A stretch of 64,000 bases of DNA from Roseitalea sp. MMSF_3546 (lineage in GTDB: Bacteria > Pseudomonadota > Alphaproteobacteria > Rhizobiales > Rhizobiaceae): contig NZ_JASHKB010000003.1 in assembly GCF_030732865.1 (NCBI RefSeq), forward strand, positions 1 through 64,000, written 5' to 3'. Positions within the stretch are counted from its first letter, which is position 1. Every line of letters starts with the position of its first letter. The notes beneath the pieces are model-generated. The model was not told the origin of the DNA. It saw nothing but the letters and a program-made list of their open reading frames with translations, and made no database searches. The position numbers and the translations under genes are program-made. This document shows, piece after piece, positions 8,796 to 15,323 of this stretch.

Positions 8796-8861
8796 ATTGA
8801 AACTCCGTGTCTTCCCATCAAGGTAGGCAGGGTGGCGGCGTGGCGCAAGGCAAAGCGGGCG

Positions 8862-9015
8862 TGCCCCTCATCCTTACCTTCTCCCCGCGAGCGGGGAGAA
8901 GGGGGCCTCGACCATCGCGGCTATCGTTTACCGCCGGCTGTATGCCGACACAAAGGCCGCTACAGTCCAAGTCTCCTTCTCCCCGCGAGCGGGGAGAAGG
9001 TGAGGATGAGGGGCA
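8862..9015. repeat. Palindromic intergenic repeat, family A copy 1 (MITE-like)
   Basis: A 154-bp element bounded by about 41-bp inverted arms (8862-8902 and 8975-9015). Each arm starts TGCCCCTCATCCT and itself contains the hairpin CTTCTCCCCGC..GCGGGGAGAAG. It sits between sufT and sufA. A second copy in opposite internal orientation lies at 10719-10874. It has no coding capacity and no obvious target-site duplication. Transcribed, it would form a very stable double-hairpin RNA. Confidence 0.9.
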
Positions 9016-9451: not shown

Positions 9452-10696
9452 TCATGCGAAAAACGTCTGCGCCTTCTCGAGCGCTTCGGCCAGCGCCTCG
9501 ATCTCGGCATGGGTGTTGTAGATGCCGAACGAGGCGCGGCAGGTGGAGGTTGCGCCAAAGCGCGTCAGCAGCGGCTGGGCGCAATGGGTGCCGGCGCGCA
9601 CGGCAACGCCCGACCGGTCGATGACCATCGAAATGTCATGCGCGTGCAGTCCCTCGATCTCGAAGGAGACGATGGCCGCCTTGTCCGGCGCATCGCCGAT
9701 GATGCGCAGCCCTTCAATGGCGCCCAGGCGCTCATGGGCATGGGCGCGCAGGTCGGCCTCATGGGCGGCGATGGCCGGGCGGCCGACGCGGTCCATGTAG
9801 TCGAGCGCCGCGCCAAGGCCGATCGCCTGGACGATGGGCGGCGTGCCGGCCTCGAAGCGGTGCGGCGGATCGGCATAGGTGACGCTGTCCTCGGTGACAT
9901 CGAGGATCATCTCGCCGCCGCCCTGAAACGGGCGCATCTCGGCGAGCCTGTCCTTGCTGCCGTAAAGCACGCCGATGCCCGAGGGACCATAGGTCTTGTG
10001 GCCGGTGAACACATACCAGTCGCAACCGAGCGCCTGGACGTCGACCGGCAGGTGCACCGCGCCCTGGCTGCCGTCGACCAGAACCGGAATGCCGTGGCGG
10101 TGCGCGATCTCGCAAACCTGCCGGATCGGCACGACCGTGCCCAGCACGTTCGAGACATGGGTGATCGCGACGAGCCTGGTGCGCTCGGTCAGCCGTTTCT
10201 CGAACTCGGCGATGTCGAACCGCCCTTCATCGTCGACCGGCACCCAGACCAGTTTCGCGCCGTGACGCTCGCGCAGGAAGTGCCAGGGCACGATGTTGGA
10301 ATGGTGTTCCATGATGGTCAGGACGATCTCGTCGCCCTCGCCGATGTTCGGAACGCCATAACCATGGGCGACCGTGTTGATCGCCTCGGTCGCCGATTTG
10401 GTGAAGACGATCTCGTCGACCGAGCCCGCGTTGAGAAAGTGCCGCACCTTCTCGCGCGCGCCCTCATAGGCCGCTGTCGCGGCGTCCGACAGGAAATGCA
10501 GGCCGCGATGGACGTTGGCATATTCGTTTTCATAGGCGTTTGTGAGCGCATCGATCACCGCGCGCGGCTTTTGCGCCGATGCGCCATTGTCCAGATAGAC
10601 CAGCGGCTTGCCATAGACCTGGCGATGCAGGATTGGAAAGTCGGCGCGGATGGCGTCGACATCGTAGCCGGCGTTGGAGATCGGGTCAGCGCTCAT
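9452..10696 (-). CDS. sufS: Cysteine desulfurase SufS (group II)
   Basis: PLP enzyme that takes sulfur from cysteine for SufBCD. The 414-aa protein has the PLP lysine in TGHKTYGPSGIG, the DGSQGAVH aspartate segment and the active Cys in RAGTHCAQPL. The short Cys loop is the group II (SufS/CsdA) form. No SufE is visible in the window, so the sulfur-transfer partner must be elsewhere. A family A repeat separates it from sufD. Confidence 0.96.
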   Translation of the reverse strand: MSADPISNAGYDVDAIRADFPILHRQVYGKPLVYLDNGASAQKPRAVIDALTNAYENEYANVHRGLHFLSDAATAAYEGAREKVRHFLNAGSVDEIVFTKSATEAINTVAHGYGVPNIGEGDEIVLTIMEHHSNIVPWHFLRERHGAKLVWVPVDDEGRFDIAEFEKRLTERTRLVAITHVSNVLGTVVPIRQVCEIAHRHGIPVLVDGSQGAVHLPVDVQALGCDWYVFTGHKTYGPSGIGVLYGSKDRLAEMRPFQGGGEMILDVTEDSVTYADPPHRFEAGTPPIVQAIGLGAALDYMDRVGRPAIAAHEADLRAHAHERLGAIEGLRIIGDAPDKAAIVSFEIEGLHAHDISMVIDRSGVAVRAGTHCAQPLLTRFGATSTCRASFGIYNTHAEIEALAEALEKAQTFFA

Positions 10697-10718
10697 ATCT
10701 GCTTGTCCTTGCGTGCCT

Positions 10719-10874
10719 GCCCCTCATCCTCACCTTCTCCCCGCCTGCGGGGAGAAGGGGTCGCCGAAAACAGTGCGTCGGCATTCGCAGCACGGCGCCC
10801 GGGTCGGGCAGGACGCGAGCCGATCTGGATGTCACCTTCTCCCCGACTGCGGGGAGAAGGTGAGGATGAGGGGC
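10719..10874. repeat. Palindromic intergenic repeat, family A copy 2 (MITE-like)
   Basis: A 156-bp element between sufD and sufS. The left arm (10719-10758) reads GCCCCTCATCCTCACC and then a hairpin CTTCTCCCCGC..GCGGGGAGAAG. The right arm (10833-10874) is its inverted counterpart. The internal part resembles the reverse complement of the copy at 8862-9015 around GTCGGCAT, so the two are the same element in opposite orientation. Confidence 0.9.
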
Positions 10875-10894
10875 GTTGCGAGACGACCGAAGCA

Positions 10895-12169
10895 TCACCC
10901 GTGCGCCTCGAGCCAGGCATCGATGCGCGCTTCGAGCGCATCGACCAGGGCTTCGTCCTTGAGTTCCTCGACGATCTCGGCGACGAACGCCTTGATCAAG
11001 AGGCCGCGGGCGGTCTTTTCGGAGACGCCGCGCGCCATCAGATAGAACAGGTGGTCATGGTCGATCTCGGCGACGGTGGCGCCGTGGGCGCAGACGACAT
11101 CGTCGGCGAAGATCTCCAGTTCCGGCTTGGTCGAAAAGCCGCCATGGTCGGACAGAAGCAGCGTGTTGCATGCCATCTGCGCGTCGGTCTTCTGCGCCGG
11201 CTGGGCGACGCGGATCTGACCCTGAAAGACGCCCTGACCCCTGGCGGTGACGACATTGCGCACGGTCTCGGTGGATGTCGTATGCGGCACGAGATGGTCG
11301 AGTTCCAGCGTGACGTCGCAATGGGCGTCGCCGCCGATCATGTTGACAGCGCGGAACGCCAGTTCGGCCCGTTCGCCGGTCGCCGCCGCATGCACTTCCT
11401 GGCGCACCAGCCGGCCCGACAGGTTGGCGATGAAGACCGTGGCCCTGGCATCCTCCTCGAGCGTCAGCCCGAGGCTTGCCAGATGGCTCGCCTGGGCGCC
11501 CTGCTCCTGCACGATGATCCAGGTGACATCGGCGCCCTTGCGCACGGTCAGTTCGGTGACGTTGGAGGCCAGTACCGCGTCATCGGTGCCAGTATGCCGG
11601 TCGACGAACAGCGCCCTGGCGCCCGCGCCGACCGTCACCTGGCTGCGCGTATGCACCTGCCCGCCGGCGTGCACGGACTGGATCTCGACGGGCGCCGCGA
11701 TCTCGGCATCATCGGCAACGCTCAGGCGCAGGCCATCGGAGACAAAGGCGGTGTTGATCGCGCCAACGGCGTCATCGGCCTCGGCCGGCGCCTCGAGCGT
11801 CACGCCGCCGACATCGGCGCGCAGGCTGTCGGCCATGGCGTCGAACTGAAGGCCATCGACAGCCGGTGTCTCGGCAAGCGCACCGTTGACGAGCGCGAAG
11901 CGCCGCGCGCCGGGCAGGATTGGGTCCACCGGTTTTGCCGGGGCATCGGCGCGCCAGGCCGGCACCGAGCTGAGCAGCCGGCGAAGGTCGGTGTAGTGCC
12001 AGGCCTCGACCTTTCGGGTGGGCAGTCGGTTGGCCTTCAGGGCAGCCACCGCCTTGTCGCGCGCCGAAACGGCGCCGGCATTGCCCGGCAGGTCGTTGCA
12101 GCGCTGGGCGAACAGGTCGATCAGGGCGGTTTCGGCGCCGGTCAGGGGCGCTTGGGCTTGAAGGTTCAT
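10895..12169 (-). CDS. sufD: Fe-S cluster assembly protein SufD
   Basis: Partner of SufB in the SufBC2D scaffold. The 424-aa beta-helix protein shows the conserved C-terminal block GGFSTKPELEIFADDVVCAHGATVAEID and the tail YLMARGVSEKTARGLLI. The His in CAHGAT is a known cluster-assembly residue of the family. It begins 12 bp after the end of sufC, so the two are certainly one transcript. Confidence 0.96.
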   Translation of the reverse strand: MNLQAQAPLTGAETALIDLFAQRCNDLPGNAGAVSARDKAVAALKANRLPTRKVEAWHYTDLRRLLSSVPAWRADAPAKPVDPILPGARRFALVNGALAETPAVDGLQFDAMADSLRADVGGVTLEAPAEADDAVGAINTAFVSDGLRLSVADDAEIAAPVEIQSVHAGGQVHTRSQVTVGAGARALFVDRHTGTDDAVLASNVTELTVRKGADVTWIIVQEQGAQASHLASLGLTLEEDARATVFIANLSGRLVRQEVHAAATGERAELAFRAVNMIGGDAHCDVTLELDHLVPHTTSTETVRNVVTARGQGVFQGQIRVAQPAQKTDAQMACNTLLLSDHGGFSTKPELEIFADDVVCAHGATVAEIDHDHLFYLMARGVSEKTARGLLIKAFVAEIVEELKDEALVDALEARIDAWLEAHG

Positions 12170-12181
12170 GGCGCGCTCCCC

Positions 12182-12937
12182 TCAGGCCGCCTGCTCGATG
12201 ACGCCGGCATAGCCCTGCGCCTCGAGCTGGGCGGCCAGCTCCTTGTCGCCGGTCTTCACGATCTGACCGCGCGAGAGGATGTGCACGGTGTCGGGGACGA
12301 TGTATTGCAGAAGCCGCTGATAGTGCGTGATCACCACGATGGCGCGATCGGGCCCGCGCAGCGCGTTGACGCCGTCGGCGACGATCTTCAAGGCATCGAT
12401 GTCAAGGCCCGAATCGGTTTCGTCGAGCACGCACAGCTTCGGCTCGAGCAGCTTCATCTGCAGGATTTCCGAGCGCTTCTTCTCGCCGCCCGAAAAACCG
12501 ACATTGACCGGCCGCTTGAGCATTTCCATGTCGATGTTCAGCGTCGCGGCGGCCTCGCGCACGCGCTTGATGAAGTCGGGCGTGGTCAGTTCGTCCTGCC
12601 CGCGCGCCTTGCGCTGCTCGTTCATGGCCACCTTGAGGAACTGCATGGTGGCGACGCCGGGGATTTCCATGGGATACTGGAAGGCCAGGAACATGCCGGC
12701 GCTGGCGCGTTCGGCCGGGTCCATCTCGAGGACGGACTCGCCATTGTAGAGGATGTCGCCCTGCGTGACTTCATAGTCCTCGCGTCCGGCGAGGATATAG
12801 GACAGCGTCGACTTGCCCGAACCGTTCGGACCCATGATGGCGGCGACCTCGCCGGCATTGACCGTCAGGTCGAGGCCCTTGATGATCTCGGTGCCATCCT
12901 CGGCGATCCGGGCGTGCAAATTCCTAATTTCTAGCAT
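12182..12937 (-). CDS. sufC: Fe-S assembly ATPase SufC
   Basis: ABC-type cytosolic ATPase that drives conformational change in SufBD. The 251-aa protein has Walker A GPNGSGKST (about 36-44), Q-loop AFQYPMEIPG, the signature SGGEKKRSEI, Walker B LCVLDETDSGLD and the H-loop ITHYQRLL. The gap of 570 bp between it and the small gene/sufB side holds the GIY-YIG cassette, an unusual separation of sufB and sufC. Confidence 0.97.
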   Translation of the reverse strand: MLEIRNLHARIAEDGTEIIKGLDLTVNAGEVAAIMGPNGSGKSTLSYILAGREDYEVTQGDILYNGESVLEMDPAERASAGMFLAFQYPMEIPGVATMQFLKVAMNEQRKARGQDELTTPDFIKRVREAAATLNIDMEMLKRPVNVGFSGGEKKRSEILQMKLLEPKLCVLDETDSGLDIDALKIVADGVNALRGPDRAIVVITHYQRLLQYIVPDTVHILSRGQIVKTGDKELAAQLEAQGYAGVIEQAA

Positions 12938-13059
12938 TTTTCCCTCTATGCGTCATTGCGAGGCATATCGCCCCTTGCCCGTTTTCCGTGCCGCCGGTCT
13001 ATCGCCAATACGGCACCGTTTTCATTCCATCTTTGTTTCGAGCGGGCGGCACTCAGCTC

Positions 13060-13096
13060 GTCATTCCGGGGCCGCGCAGCGGAACCCGGAACCCAG
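13060..13096 (+). repeat. Left inverted repeat of the GIY-YIG cassette
   Basis: This 37-bp arm begins GTCATTCCGGGGCCGCG and pairs with 13467-13503 with two mismatches. It overlaps the last 12 or so codons and stop of the nuclease gene. Confidence 0.9.
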
Positions 13097-13438
13097 ACCG
13101 CCTTCCTTCGCCTTCTCGCCACGATCGCGGATCGCGTCCGATGGATTGTCTCGTTCGTAGCAACTCTCCAGTAAATCCAACCAATCGGGGTTGAAGCCCT
13201 CGATCAGGTAGAGTTTCCATGCCCGCCGCCACTTCTTCAGTTCCTTCTCCCTGGCTATCGCCTCAACGATGTTGTCGTGCCGTTCGTACCAGACCAGTGT
13301 CGTGCAGCCGTACCGGCGCGAAAATCCCGGTGTCAGACCATCCCTGTGCTCCTGCGCACGTCCCTGAAGATCACTCGTCACGCCGGTGTAAATCGTCCCG
13401 TTGCGCTTCGACGCCATGATGTAGACCCAACCGGACAA
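13061..13438 (-). CDS. GIY-YIG domain endonuclease-like protein
   Basis: A 125-aa protein of the small GIY-YIG family (COG2827 type). The GIY-equivalent is WVYIM at residues 4-8 and the YIG-equivalent is IYTGVTSDL. A downstream Arg-X-X-X-His segment and the catalytic Glu in IAREKELKKWRR complete the nuclease core (about residues 1-95). The last 30 residues (EKAKEGGLGSGFRCAAPE) are non-domain sequence encoded partly by the flanking repeat. It is transcribed in the same direction as the suf genes. Substrate unknown. Confidence 0.88.
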   Translation of the reverse strand: MSGWVYIMASKRNGTIYTGVTSDLQGRAQEHRDGLTPGFSRRYGCTTLVWYERHDNIVEAIAREKELKKWRRAWKLYLIEGFNPDWLDLLESCYERDNPSDAIRDRGEKAKEGGLGSGFRCAAPE

Positions 13439-13466
13439 CCGCGTCTCTTACTCCCATTTCTCGGCT

Positions 13467-13503
13467 CTGGTTTCCGGGTTCCGCTACGCGGCCCCGGAAT
13501 GAC
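13467..13503 (-). repeat. Right inverted repeat of the GIY-YIG cassette
   Basis: This 37-bp arm is the reverse complement of the arm at 13060-13096 with two mismatches. It lies 28 bp upstream of the nuclease start and only 6 bp after the end of the small membrane protein gene. Confidence 0.9.
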
Positions 13504-13509
13504 GGCAAA

Positions 13510-13716
13510 TCAGTCTCCTTTCGACCCGAACAGCCCGCGGGCCGCAAAGCTCACGGCGGCGATGCCGCCGAGAATGCCGGCCGAGGTGTAGGGCGAACCG
13601 AACGGCGCCCAGAAATAACCGACGGCCGTGGCAACCAGGATCGAGGCGGCGCCGGCCAGCCGGACAGTGCCCGAAAGGTCGCGATCATCGCCCTTGTCCA
13701 CCATCATGCGCTCCAT
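13510..13716 (-). CDS. Small two-helix membrane protein in the suf operon
   Basis: Not recognised. The 68-aa product has a charged N-terminus (MERMMVDKGDDRDLSGT) and two hydrophobic stretches, about residues 19-38 and 45-60, with a final positively charged GLFGSKGD. It lies 75 bp downstream of sufB and immediately before the nuclease cassette, in suf orientation. The start may be Met1, Met4 or Met5. A role in Fe-S assembly is not indicated by sequence. Confidence 0.6.
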   Translation of the reverse strand: MERMMVDKGDDRDLSGTVRLAGAASILVATAVGYFWAPFGSPYTSAGILGGIAAVSFAARGLFGSKGD

Positions 13717-13791: not shown

Positions 13792-15261
<1,470 letters not shown>

Positions 15262-15323
15262 GGCGATCTCCCTTCCGAACAATCCCATCGGCGGCGTTGG
15301 GCACCGCTCATTGGAGAATTTAG

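Follow-up and report, generated by a model that had tools for sequence, protein, structure and literature searches.

REPs are widespread bacterial repeats for which, as presented in the part of Di Nocera 2013 drawn on here (PMC3733652), an enzyme, RAYT, is known for the GTAG half and is apparently lacking for the CGTC half. In the REPtrons, which combine GTAG REPs with a RAYT (TnpA_REP, of the HUH/Y1 type), the repeats are short, palindromic and tagged, occur both solo and as inverted pairs, and frame the gene of their own enzyme; where several repeat types coexist, the enzymes are repeat-specific (same part of PMC3733652). The CGTC REPs consist, in that account, of a CGTC tag followed by AT, a palindromic stem and a CCA tail, typically with loops of 4–5 nt, other loop lengths being described for some families. 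They include the neisserial dRS3 and the rickettsial RPE-4 and RPE-6, and "apparently lack a dedicated transposase", their spreading mechanism being left open. No tyrosine transposase gene flanked by CGTC sequences was found in the species examined there, and REPs were described as favouring the 3' ends of genes (same part of PMC3733652).

GIY-YIG homing endonucleases, either of the I-TevI type or free-standing in phages, combine a nuclease fold of relevance here with selfish spread. Insertion sequences (IS elements) with MITE derivatives provide the precedent of terminal inverted repeats around one gene together with some internally deleted relatives, and to our knowledge no insertion-sequence family uses a GIY-YIG enzyme. 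The small single-domain GIY-YIG proteins of the UPF0213 type are, in the section of PMC1564403 that deals with them, filed with Slx1 and given predicted repair functions, and REP framing is not mentioned in that section; Slx1 itself is described there as a nuclease for branched DNA. No printed link between GIY-YIG enzymes and REPs was found among the matches listed for open-licence PMC papers, a report elsewhere being possible, and neither GIY nor RAYT occurs in the main text of a 2025 REP survey (PMC12306157).

Within the window, as we call the whole 64,000-nt stretch of Roseitalea sp. MMSF_3546 analysed here, the gap between sufB and sufC holds a unit in which two inverted arms enclose one GIY-YIG nuclease gene (Table 1). 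The arms are 39 nt long, 95% complementary and separated by 368 nt; the initial annotation, which had reported arms matching at 35 of 37 bases, described the same repeat less 1 bp at each end. It had also placed the stop codon of the gene within one arm, and the TGA is indeed found inside arm 1, at its GGAATGACG end, the ORF starting with TTG. With ≤3 mismatches allowed, the arm pattern matches twice in the window versus not once in 100 dinucleotide-preserving shuffles. A Pfam scan of the gene product returned GIY-YIG (PF01541, 60 bits versus a cut-off of 22.6 bits) and nothing else, in agreement with the earlier remark that the unit carries no visible transposase. Against the annotated proteins of Azospirillum lipoferum, the translations of the neighbouring genes match at 65% (SufC) and 73% (SufB), and the unit does separate the two, with the nuance that a 68-aa ORF also lies between it and sufB; sequence homologous to this ORF is present in both unit-less congeners, and a search of the ORF for an NCBIfam match gave none.

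Table 1. Coordinates of the unit and of its neighbours in the window.
Feature	Coordinates	Strand	Basis and remarks
Whole REP-GIY-REP unit, 446 bp	13059..13504		Inverted arms; boundaries as in sphingomonad units, whose alignments run from one REP end to the other and no farther
Arm 1, CGTC-tagged REP hairpin	13059..13097	+	Holds nuclease stop codon; CGTC tag outermost; inverted-repeat search, folding, REP description in the part of PMC3733652 drawn on
Arm 2, second CGTC-tagged REP hairpin, inverted	13466..13504	-	Upstream of nuclease start; CGTC tag outermost; inverted-repeat search, folding
GIY-YIG nuclease ORF, 125 aa	13061..13438	-	Conserved domain 13145-13438 (98 aa); final residues encoded by arm 1; PF01541 60 bits; AF2 pLDDT 93.7; nearest solved folds UPF0213, Slx1
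68-aa ORF between sufB and unit	13510..13716	-	ORF list; homologous sequence in congeners with and without unit; no NCBIfam match
sufB, left neighbour of unit in operon order	13792..15288	-	ORF; match to Azospirillum lipoferum SufB
sufC, right neighbour of unit in operon order	12182..12937	-	ORF; match to Azospirillum lipoferum SufC

Each arm forms a hairpin when folded separately (as DNA, -12.2 and -12.3 kcal/mol; z -3.2 and -3.4). This property, absent from the initial annotation, is the reason why we identify the arms as REPs. They read CGTCATTCCGGGG...CCCGGAAC/A CCA and thus carry the tag, the stem and the tail of CGTC REPs. One base interrupts the AT pair in both window arms, whereas most congener arms have it intact (GGAATCCA). 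Instead of measuring 4–5 nt, the loop of the window arms is long and contains an inner stem. The arms belong to the CGTC REP superfamily and are not private TIRs: tag, hairpin, CCA tail and inverted pairing are the same, the difference being that this superfamily was published without an associated enzyme gene (in the part of PMC3733652 drawn on), whereas an enzyme gene is found here.

As to whether the arms might occur only at this locus, which the initial annotation had named as a result that would speak against it, this holds for the 4.05-Mb genome of the strain itself (G000), where this arm type is matched twice, both times at the unit. It does not hold for the congeners: G002 has the type at a single site, and G001, G003 and G004 each have it at several. 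G000 itself also contains dispersed CGTC REPs of another type (CGTCATTCCGGAACTTGATTCCGGAATCCA). A pair of this other type lies directly after the 3' end of a second stand-alone GIY-YIG gene of this kind in the same genome. As in REPtrons, the REP type goes with the gene where several types coexist: the single-contig genome G003 has three nuclease genes, each with a different REP type. The locus departs from REPtrons in that its gene carries only PF01541, without an HUH or Y1 domain, in that its arms are tagged CGTC and not GTAG, and in that whole repeat–gene–repeat units occupy unrelated sites; a search of G000 for PF01797 gave no match. Compared with IS elements, inverted repeats are present, but the gene is by Pfam neither a DDE or other transposase nor a recombinase, target duplication is not evident and the ends are self-folding REPs.

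To follow the association across genomes, a profile of the two G000 proteins was used and matched 33 of 61 related genomes, and a 29-row profile matched 148 of 387 genomes class-wide (Alphaproteobacteria) and 122 of 397 phylum-wide. A REP was called as [CT]GTC followed by AT and an 8-bp stem with ≤1 mismatch and a loop of 3–18. Among near relatives, a REP lies ≤300 bp from the nuclease gene in 25 of 30 loci (20 on both sides, 5 on one, 5 with none). Class-wide the count is 50/60 (31 both, 19 one, 10 none) for loci taken from 60 of the 148 positive genomes down the score-ranked list, one per genome and with long contigs preferred, a choice made before REP scanning and not a random draw. In other classes of the phylum, 16 of 20 loci, likewise picked from among the matches listed phylum-wide, have a REP near the gene (13 both, 3 one, 4 none), and so do 48 of 65 loci in named genomes (37 both, 11 one, 17 none), at least 4 of which duplicate loci of the relatives set. 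Extra copies in multi-copy genomes have one near 9 of 20 genes. The scan is conservative, as the Ahrensia locus (L263) was scored as having none although, judged by eye, CGTC arms with long loops flank the gene on either side.

Short palindromes are easily found in GC-rich DNA, and it could be argued that these counts are a chance product or an artefact of a loose hairpin search. ParE loci served as control, and only 1 of 30 has a REP ≤300 bp from the gene; the gene was assumed to be mid-locus, which is wrong for L165, a locus with no REP call, and accepting a hairpin that overlaps the gene end would raise the number of ParE loci to 2. Four REP calls were made overall in these 30 loci, one of which looks a true REP and three of which look like chance hairpins. 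REP density falls from 6.5 per kb at 0–100 bp of the nuclease gene to 0.07 per kb at 1.5–6 kb (~90-fold). Because much of the far DNA is coding, the fairer figure is that for intergenic DNA only, which in three annotated 49-kb stretches is 6.25 versus 0.26 REPs per intergenic kb (~24-fold). In the annotated stretches, all 6 intergenic junctions beside a nuclease gene have a REP versus 3 of 65 others. A reversed-pattern control gave 0 hits in 57 of 61 genomes and 1 in each of the other 4. A motif-free test, scoring inverted matches between the two flanks, reached ≥20 in 54 of 110 loci versus 0/30 ParE loci and 4/399 mismatched pairs. Together, the low density far from the genes, the ParE loci, the reversed pattern and the motif-free test rule out chance palindromes, and we give this explanation a negligible probability.

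The repeats on the two sides are also matched to one another. REPs stand on both sides in 57 of 110 loci, where 46 pairs are inverted and 35 of these have their tags outward, and the variable part of the left and right arms is 0.91 identical within a locus versus 0.60 between loci (n=101; 50 identical pairs). In three genomes (G003, G026, G017), 7/46, 5/30 and 11/27 REP hits lie ≤600 bp from a nuclease gene (0.06, 0.02 and 0.04 expected), and each of their 7 nuclease genes has such a hit. REP hits per genome have a median of 20 in the 33 genomes with the nuclease versus 4.5 in the 28 without it (Mann–Whitney p 5e-4). Taken together, these comparisons indicate, about as certainly as comparative data allow, that the nuclease genes are systematically framed by matched CGTC REPs.

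Whether the framed gene moves was addressed with 14 sphingomonad loci, aligned pairwise by blastn (plus strand, E 1e-10). Each of the 91 pairs yields an alignment across the unit, and in 88 pairs no other alignment exceeds 60 bp; the alignments usually span ~53 bp before to ~45 bp after the conserved domain, which corresponds to the CGTC ends of the two REPs. The exceptions are L273/L292, which is syntenic, and L287/L318 and L290/L318, which have some common neighbours at other offsets. L287 and L290 lie ~45 kb apart on one contig as two copies of 95.4% identity, a recent within-genome pair. Units with their tags outward measure 346–568 bp (median 397, n=73).

Empty sites complement these alignments. 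Within the genus of the window, the sufB–sufC gap holds the unit in G000, G001 and G003 and is empty in G002 and G004, so that the case in which all relatives carry the same gene between sufB and sufC without arms, raised initially as evidence of vertical inheritance, does not apply: the unit is there in 3 of 5 genomes. G004 has a related unit elsewhere, 1 bp past a stop codon, and G001, G002 and G003 have no unit at that site. In Azospirillum lipoferum 4B, sufB and sufC are separated by a unit whose first REP starts 21 bp past the sufB stop; 11 other Azospirillum records gave 84–86% query cover at 84.6–94.6% identity, as expected without the unit, and the 4 of them that were aligned are all empty. 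A unit present in Shinella HZN7 and WSC3-e is missing from S. sumterensis and PSBB067. A search allowing 2 stem mismatches found no CGTC REP at the aligned empty sites of the window's genus and Azospirillum, and the same loose scan of the Shinella empty sites found one hairpin, in PSBB067. As the empty sites of the former two groups have no CGTC REP, the REPs and the gene seem to have come together, and movement of nuclease and REPs as one unit is strongly supported by these sequence comparisons.

These data bear directly on the view that the nuclease is an immobile resident repair enzyme in whose flanks REPs gathered, either by insertion preference or as terminators. That view can draw on the predicted repair role of the Slx1-like family (section cited of PMC1564403), on the preference of REPs for gene 3' ends (part of PMC3733652 drawn on) and on vertical inheritance, which at several sites, as in the Jiella group, is old. 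It is largely refuted by the sphingomonad pairs, which align over the unit and have unrelated flanks in 88 of 91 cases, and it is further opposed by the empty orthologous sites, the matched left and right arms and the nearly REP-free control genes, leaving it very improbable. For the related proposal of the initial annotation, a repeat domesticated around a resident nuclease, the outlook is likewise poorer because whole units sit in unrelated places.

The gap between sufB and sufC is used repeatedly: 12 distinct loci of 205, plus the window, lie there. A single origin of these insertions is rejected on a 32-row tree (p-AU 0.0019; a quick tree of 98 columns and hence a limited test). On a FastTree of 197 rows the sufB–sufC label changes 6 times, but a single origin is compatible with its well-supported branches taken alone. 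The latter tree was built from the 205 loci plus the window, leaving out rows with stop codons or <75 residues, four loci on the same contigs as others (L259, L260, L268 and L270, with L019, L020, L021 and L022, respectively) and the partial L321. The unit at this site is probably old among the near relatives of the window (L261–L263), and that of Azospirillum looks recent. A purely vertical resident of the sufB–sufC gap was rejected as a full account given the empty sites and the p-AU value, vertical inheritance explaining some loci.

At the ends of 26 printed units of 28, no target duplication was evident by eye, as had been noted for the window. The changes at the sufB–sufC gap of G001 (L259), considered as a target duplication, were reduced to a 24-bp direct repeat that derives from the end of the small ORF and stands on both sides, ~40 bp outside the arms; this repeat may be a footprint of insertion. 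Recent bursts within one genome were also considered and set aside: 11 nuclease copies are reported for G165, the 8 compared are divergent and L287/L290 is the one recent pair observed. Since the G165 paralogues are divergent, bursts of copying appear to be rare. At L328, on plasmid e of Rhizobium sp. CIAT894, a neighbourhood search found relatives of one flank in other plasmids. In G002 and G003 (L334, L336), where the G004 unit is missing, a different long hairpin repeat (CCTCATCCTGAGGTG... with GCCTCGAAGG) occupies the gap, so that repeats of different families use one gap.

The predicted enzyme has kept its catalytic positions. Y6, Y17, G19, R27 and E64 are invariant in 29 of 29 aligned proteins; these were read against the GIY-YIG residues described as catalytic in the cited section of PMC1564403, supplemented by general knowledge of the fold. 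Values of dN/dS lie between 0.04 and 0.13 in the 7 named pairs, of 8, that allowed the computation (window/L019, 0.06; window/L018, 0.09; L287/L290, 0.13), and in sphingomonads the median is 0.12 over the 24 of 45 pairs, from 10 of the 14 loci, that gave a value, with dS near saturation in some. Judged by these ratios, the gene is kept under purifying selection. The AF2 model is a compact single domain (pLDDT 93.7), and its fold search returned the UPF0213 protein 1zg2 first (E 1e-4), followed by Slx1 of Slx1–Slx4 (E 0.03, TM about 0.5). With its stand-alone GIY-YIG domain, its catalytic Tyr, Arg and Glu and its length and fold, the nuclease is, by sequence and model, Slx1-like with an intact active site. 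As Slx1 cuts branched DNA (same section of PMC1564403), the likeness suggests a REP hairpin or cruciform as substrate. Family members are annotated as 'GIY-YIG nuclease family protein' or 'excinuclease ABC subunit C'. A phage origin of the nuclease was rejected, the family search returning 1 weak match among 50,697 phage records at E 1e-5.

The fold is that of homing nucleases, and a homing endonuclease could account for the arrangement if it cut solo REPs and had its gene copied in by repair via REP homology, the REPs then being targets and not ends. Homing into a REP or REPIN would leave the gene with REPs on either side, some units are found between two complete REPINs (Azospirillum; Shinella HZN7), and the Neisseria gene is embedded in a REP array. 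This account is at odds with the aligned empty sites of the window's genus and Azospirillum, which have no CGTC REP, and with the Pfam result of one domain, no NUMOD or other C-terminal DNA-binding domain being found. The gene also differs from homing endonucleases in its REP framing, in having no intron and in being hardly present in phages. We regard homing as possible but rather unlikely.

A further alternative is that the nuclease is a passenger, as cargo or for a benefit to the host, of a REP-bounded unit moved by another enzyme, be it an IS transposase, a RAYT or host recombination between REPs. Paired REPs offer stretches of homology to the recombination machinery of the host, many REPs lie away from any nuclease, and some REP-rich genomes have no such gene at the cut-off used (G008 and G058, with 81 and 42 REP hits). 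Against this account, one and the same cargo class recurs within REPs of many types, both in alpha- and in non-alpha Proteobacteria. Y1 transposases were found in 9 of the 61 relatives; the 5 genomes of the genus have none. No CGTC REP lies ≤300 bp from any of the 11 Y1 loci, 2 of which have a REP call farther off (~410 and ~630 bp); on these counts RAYT was rejected as the mover in the window's genus. The published survey, in its part drawn on above, likewise found no tyrosine transposase gene between CGTC sequences (PMC3733652). Overall, we deem the passenger account improbable.

We therefore consider it likely that the unit is a mobile REP–GIY-YIG nuclease–REP cassette and that its nuclease family is the enzyme partner of CGTC-tagged REPs, association and mobility being shown by comparison while we infer cleavage and copying. 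This reading matches the initial suggestion of a minimal self-spreading unit of a nuclease plus its own repeats, likened to REP/RAYT, and fits the comparative evidence; a part of the nuclease in moving its own unit is the leading inference from that evidence. The best reading is that the nuclease processes REP hairpins and that the cassette is a RAYT/REPtron analogue with an unrelated enzyme.

In the mechanism that we propose, read-through transcription of the host operon would yield the nuclease; because only a short leader (median 35 bp, n=73) separates the REP from the nuclease domain, expression probably relies on such read-through. Acting on DNA structure, the enzyme would nick or cut REP hairpins near their CGTC end, the hairpins being either extruded or folded on single-stranded DNA at the fork, and the freed or broken segment would then be copied elsewhere by host break repair. 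GIY-YIG nucleases act by hydrolysing DNA; strand joining is not known from them, and host repair would therefore be needed. Solo REPs and inverted REP pairs (REPIN-like) would represent non-autonomous products, the REPINs possibly arising as internal deletion products of the cassette; the spacer ends of REPINs close by match inner cassette ends in 3 of 10 testable loci (L328, L022 and L256), where such a deletion is visible, and do not in the other 7. Of the insertions for which an empty site was aligned, two are located within ~20 bp past a stop codon. Downstream of the unit at L328, two REPIN-like dimers are seen with a period of 271 bp.

We lean slightly towards the broader proposition that small Slx1-like GIY-YIG nucleases drive the CGTC REP superfamily across Proteobacteria, including neisserial dRS3, and that the REP-GIY-REP unit (~350–570 bp) constitutes a new class of autonomous element spreading without a transposase, by structure-directed cleavage at its own hairpin ends and host repair. 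If true, a simple nuclease without transposase chemistry could sustain a mobile element, and a function would be found for proteins labelled as above. A tiny conserved enzyme between matched REPs also renders the question of CGTC spreading testable with one purified protein and synthetic hairpins.

Several minor observations were made alongside. A gonococcal family member (L324; NZ_CP119140.1, 1879275-1885541) lies inside an array of dRS3-type CGTC repeats, where 6.3 kb hold 16 REP calls; although classed as a 2.17-Mb plasmid, the record looks like a chromosome. A cyanobacterial member on plasmid p1 of Planktothrix agardhii (L326), with no CGTC REP calls, has an MmeI-type restriction enzyme gene on one side and DISARM drmA on the other and apparently belongs to a defence island. 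In G050, a REP pair that combines unlike halves (one of the CCCGGACTTG type, one of the TTCCAGCGAAAG type) is repeated some ten times with almost unchanging spacing, and the profile search of related genomes gave no nuclease match there. In the window itself, GCGTCATTGCGAGG at 12950-12963, between sufC and the unit, resembles half of another CGTC-tagged repeat; the stretch is present also in G003 and absent from G001, G002 and G004. Other gaps of the suf region (~8815-9015 and 10690-10900) seemingly hold a second palindromic repeat family, ORF translations there repeating SPSPRERGEGEDEG-like strings, and we take these repeats to resemble a CTC-rich intergenic repeat.
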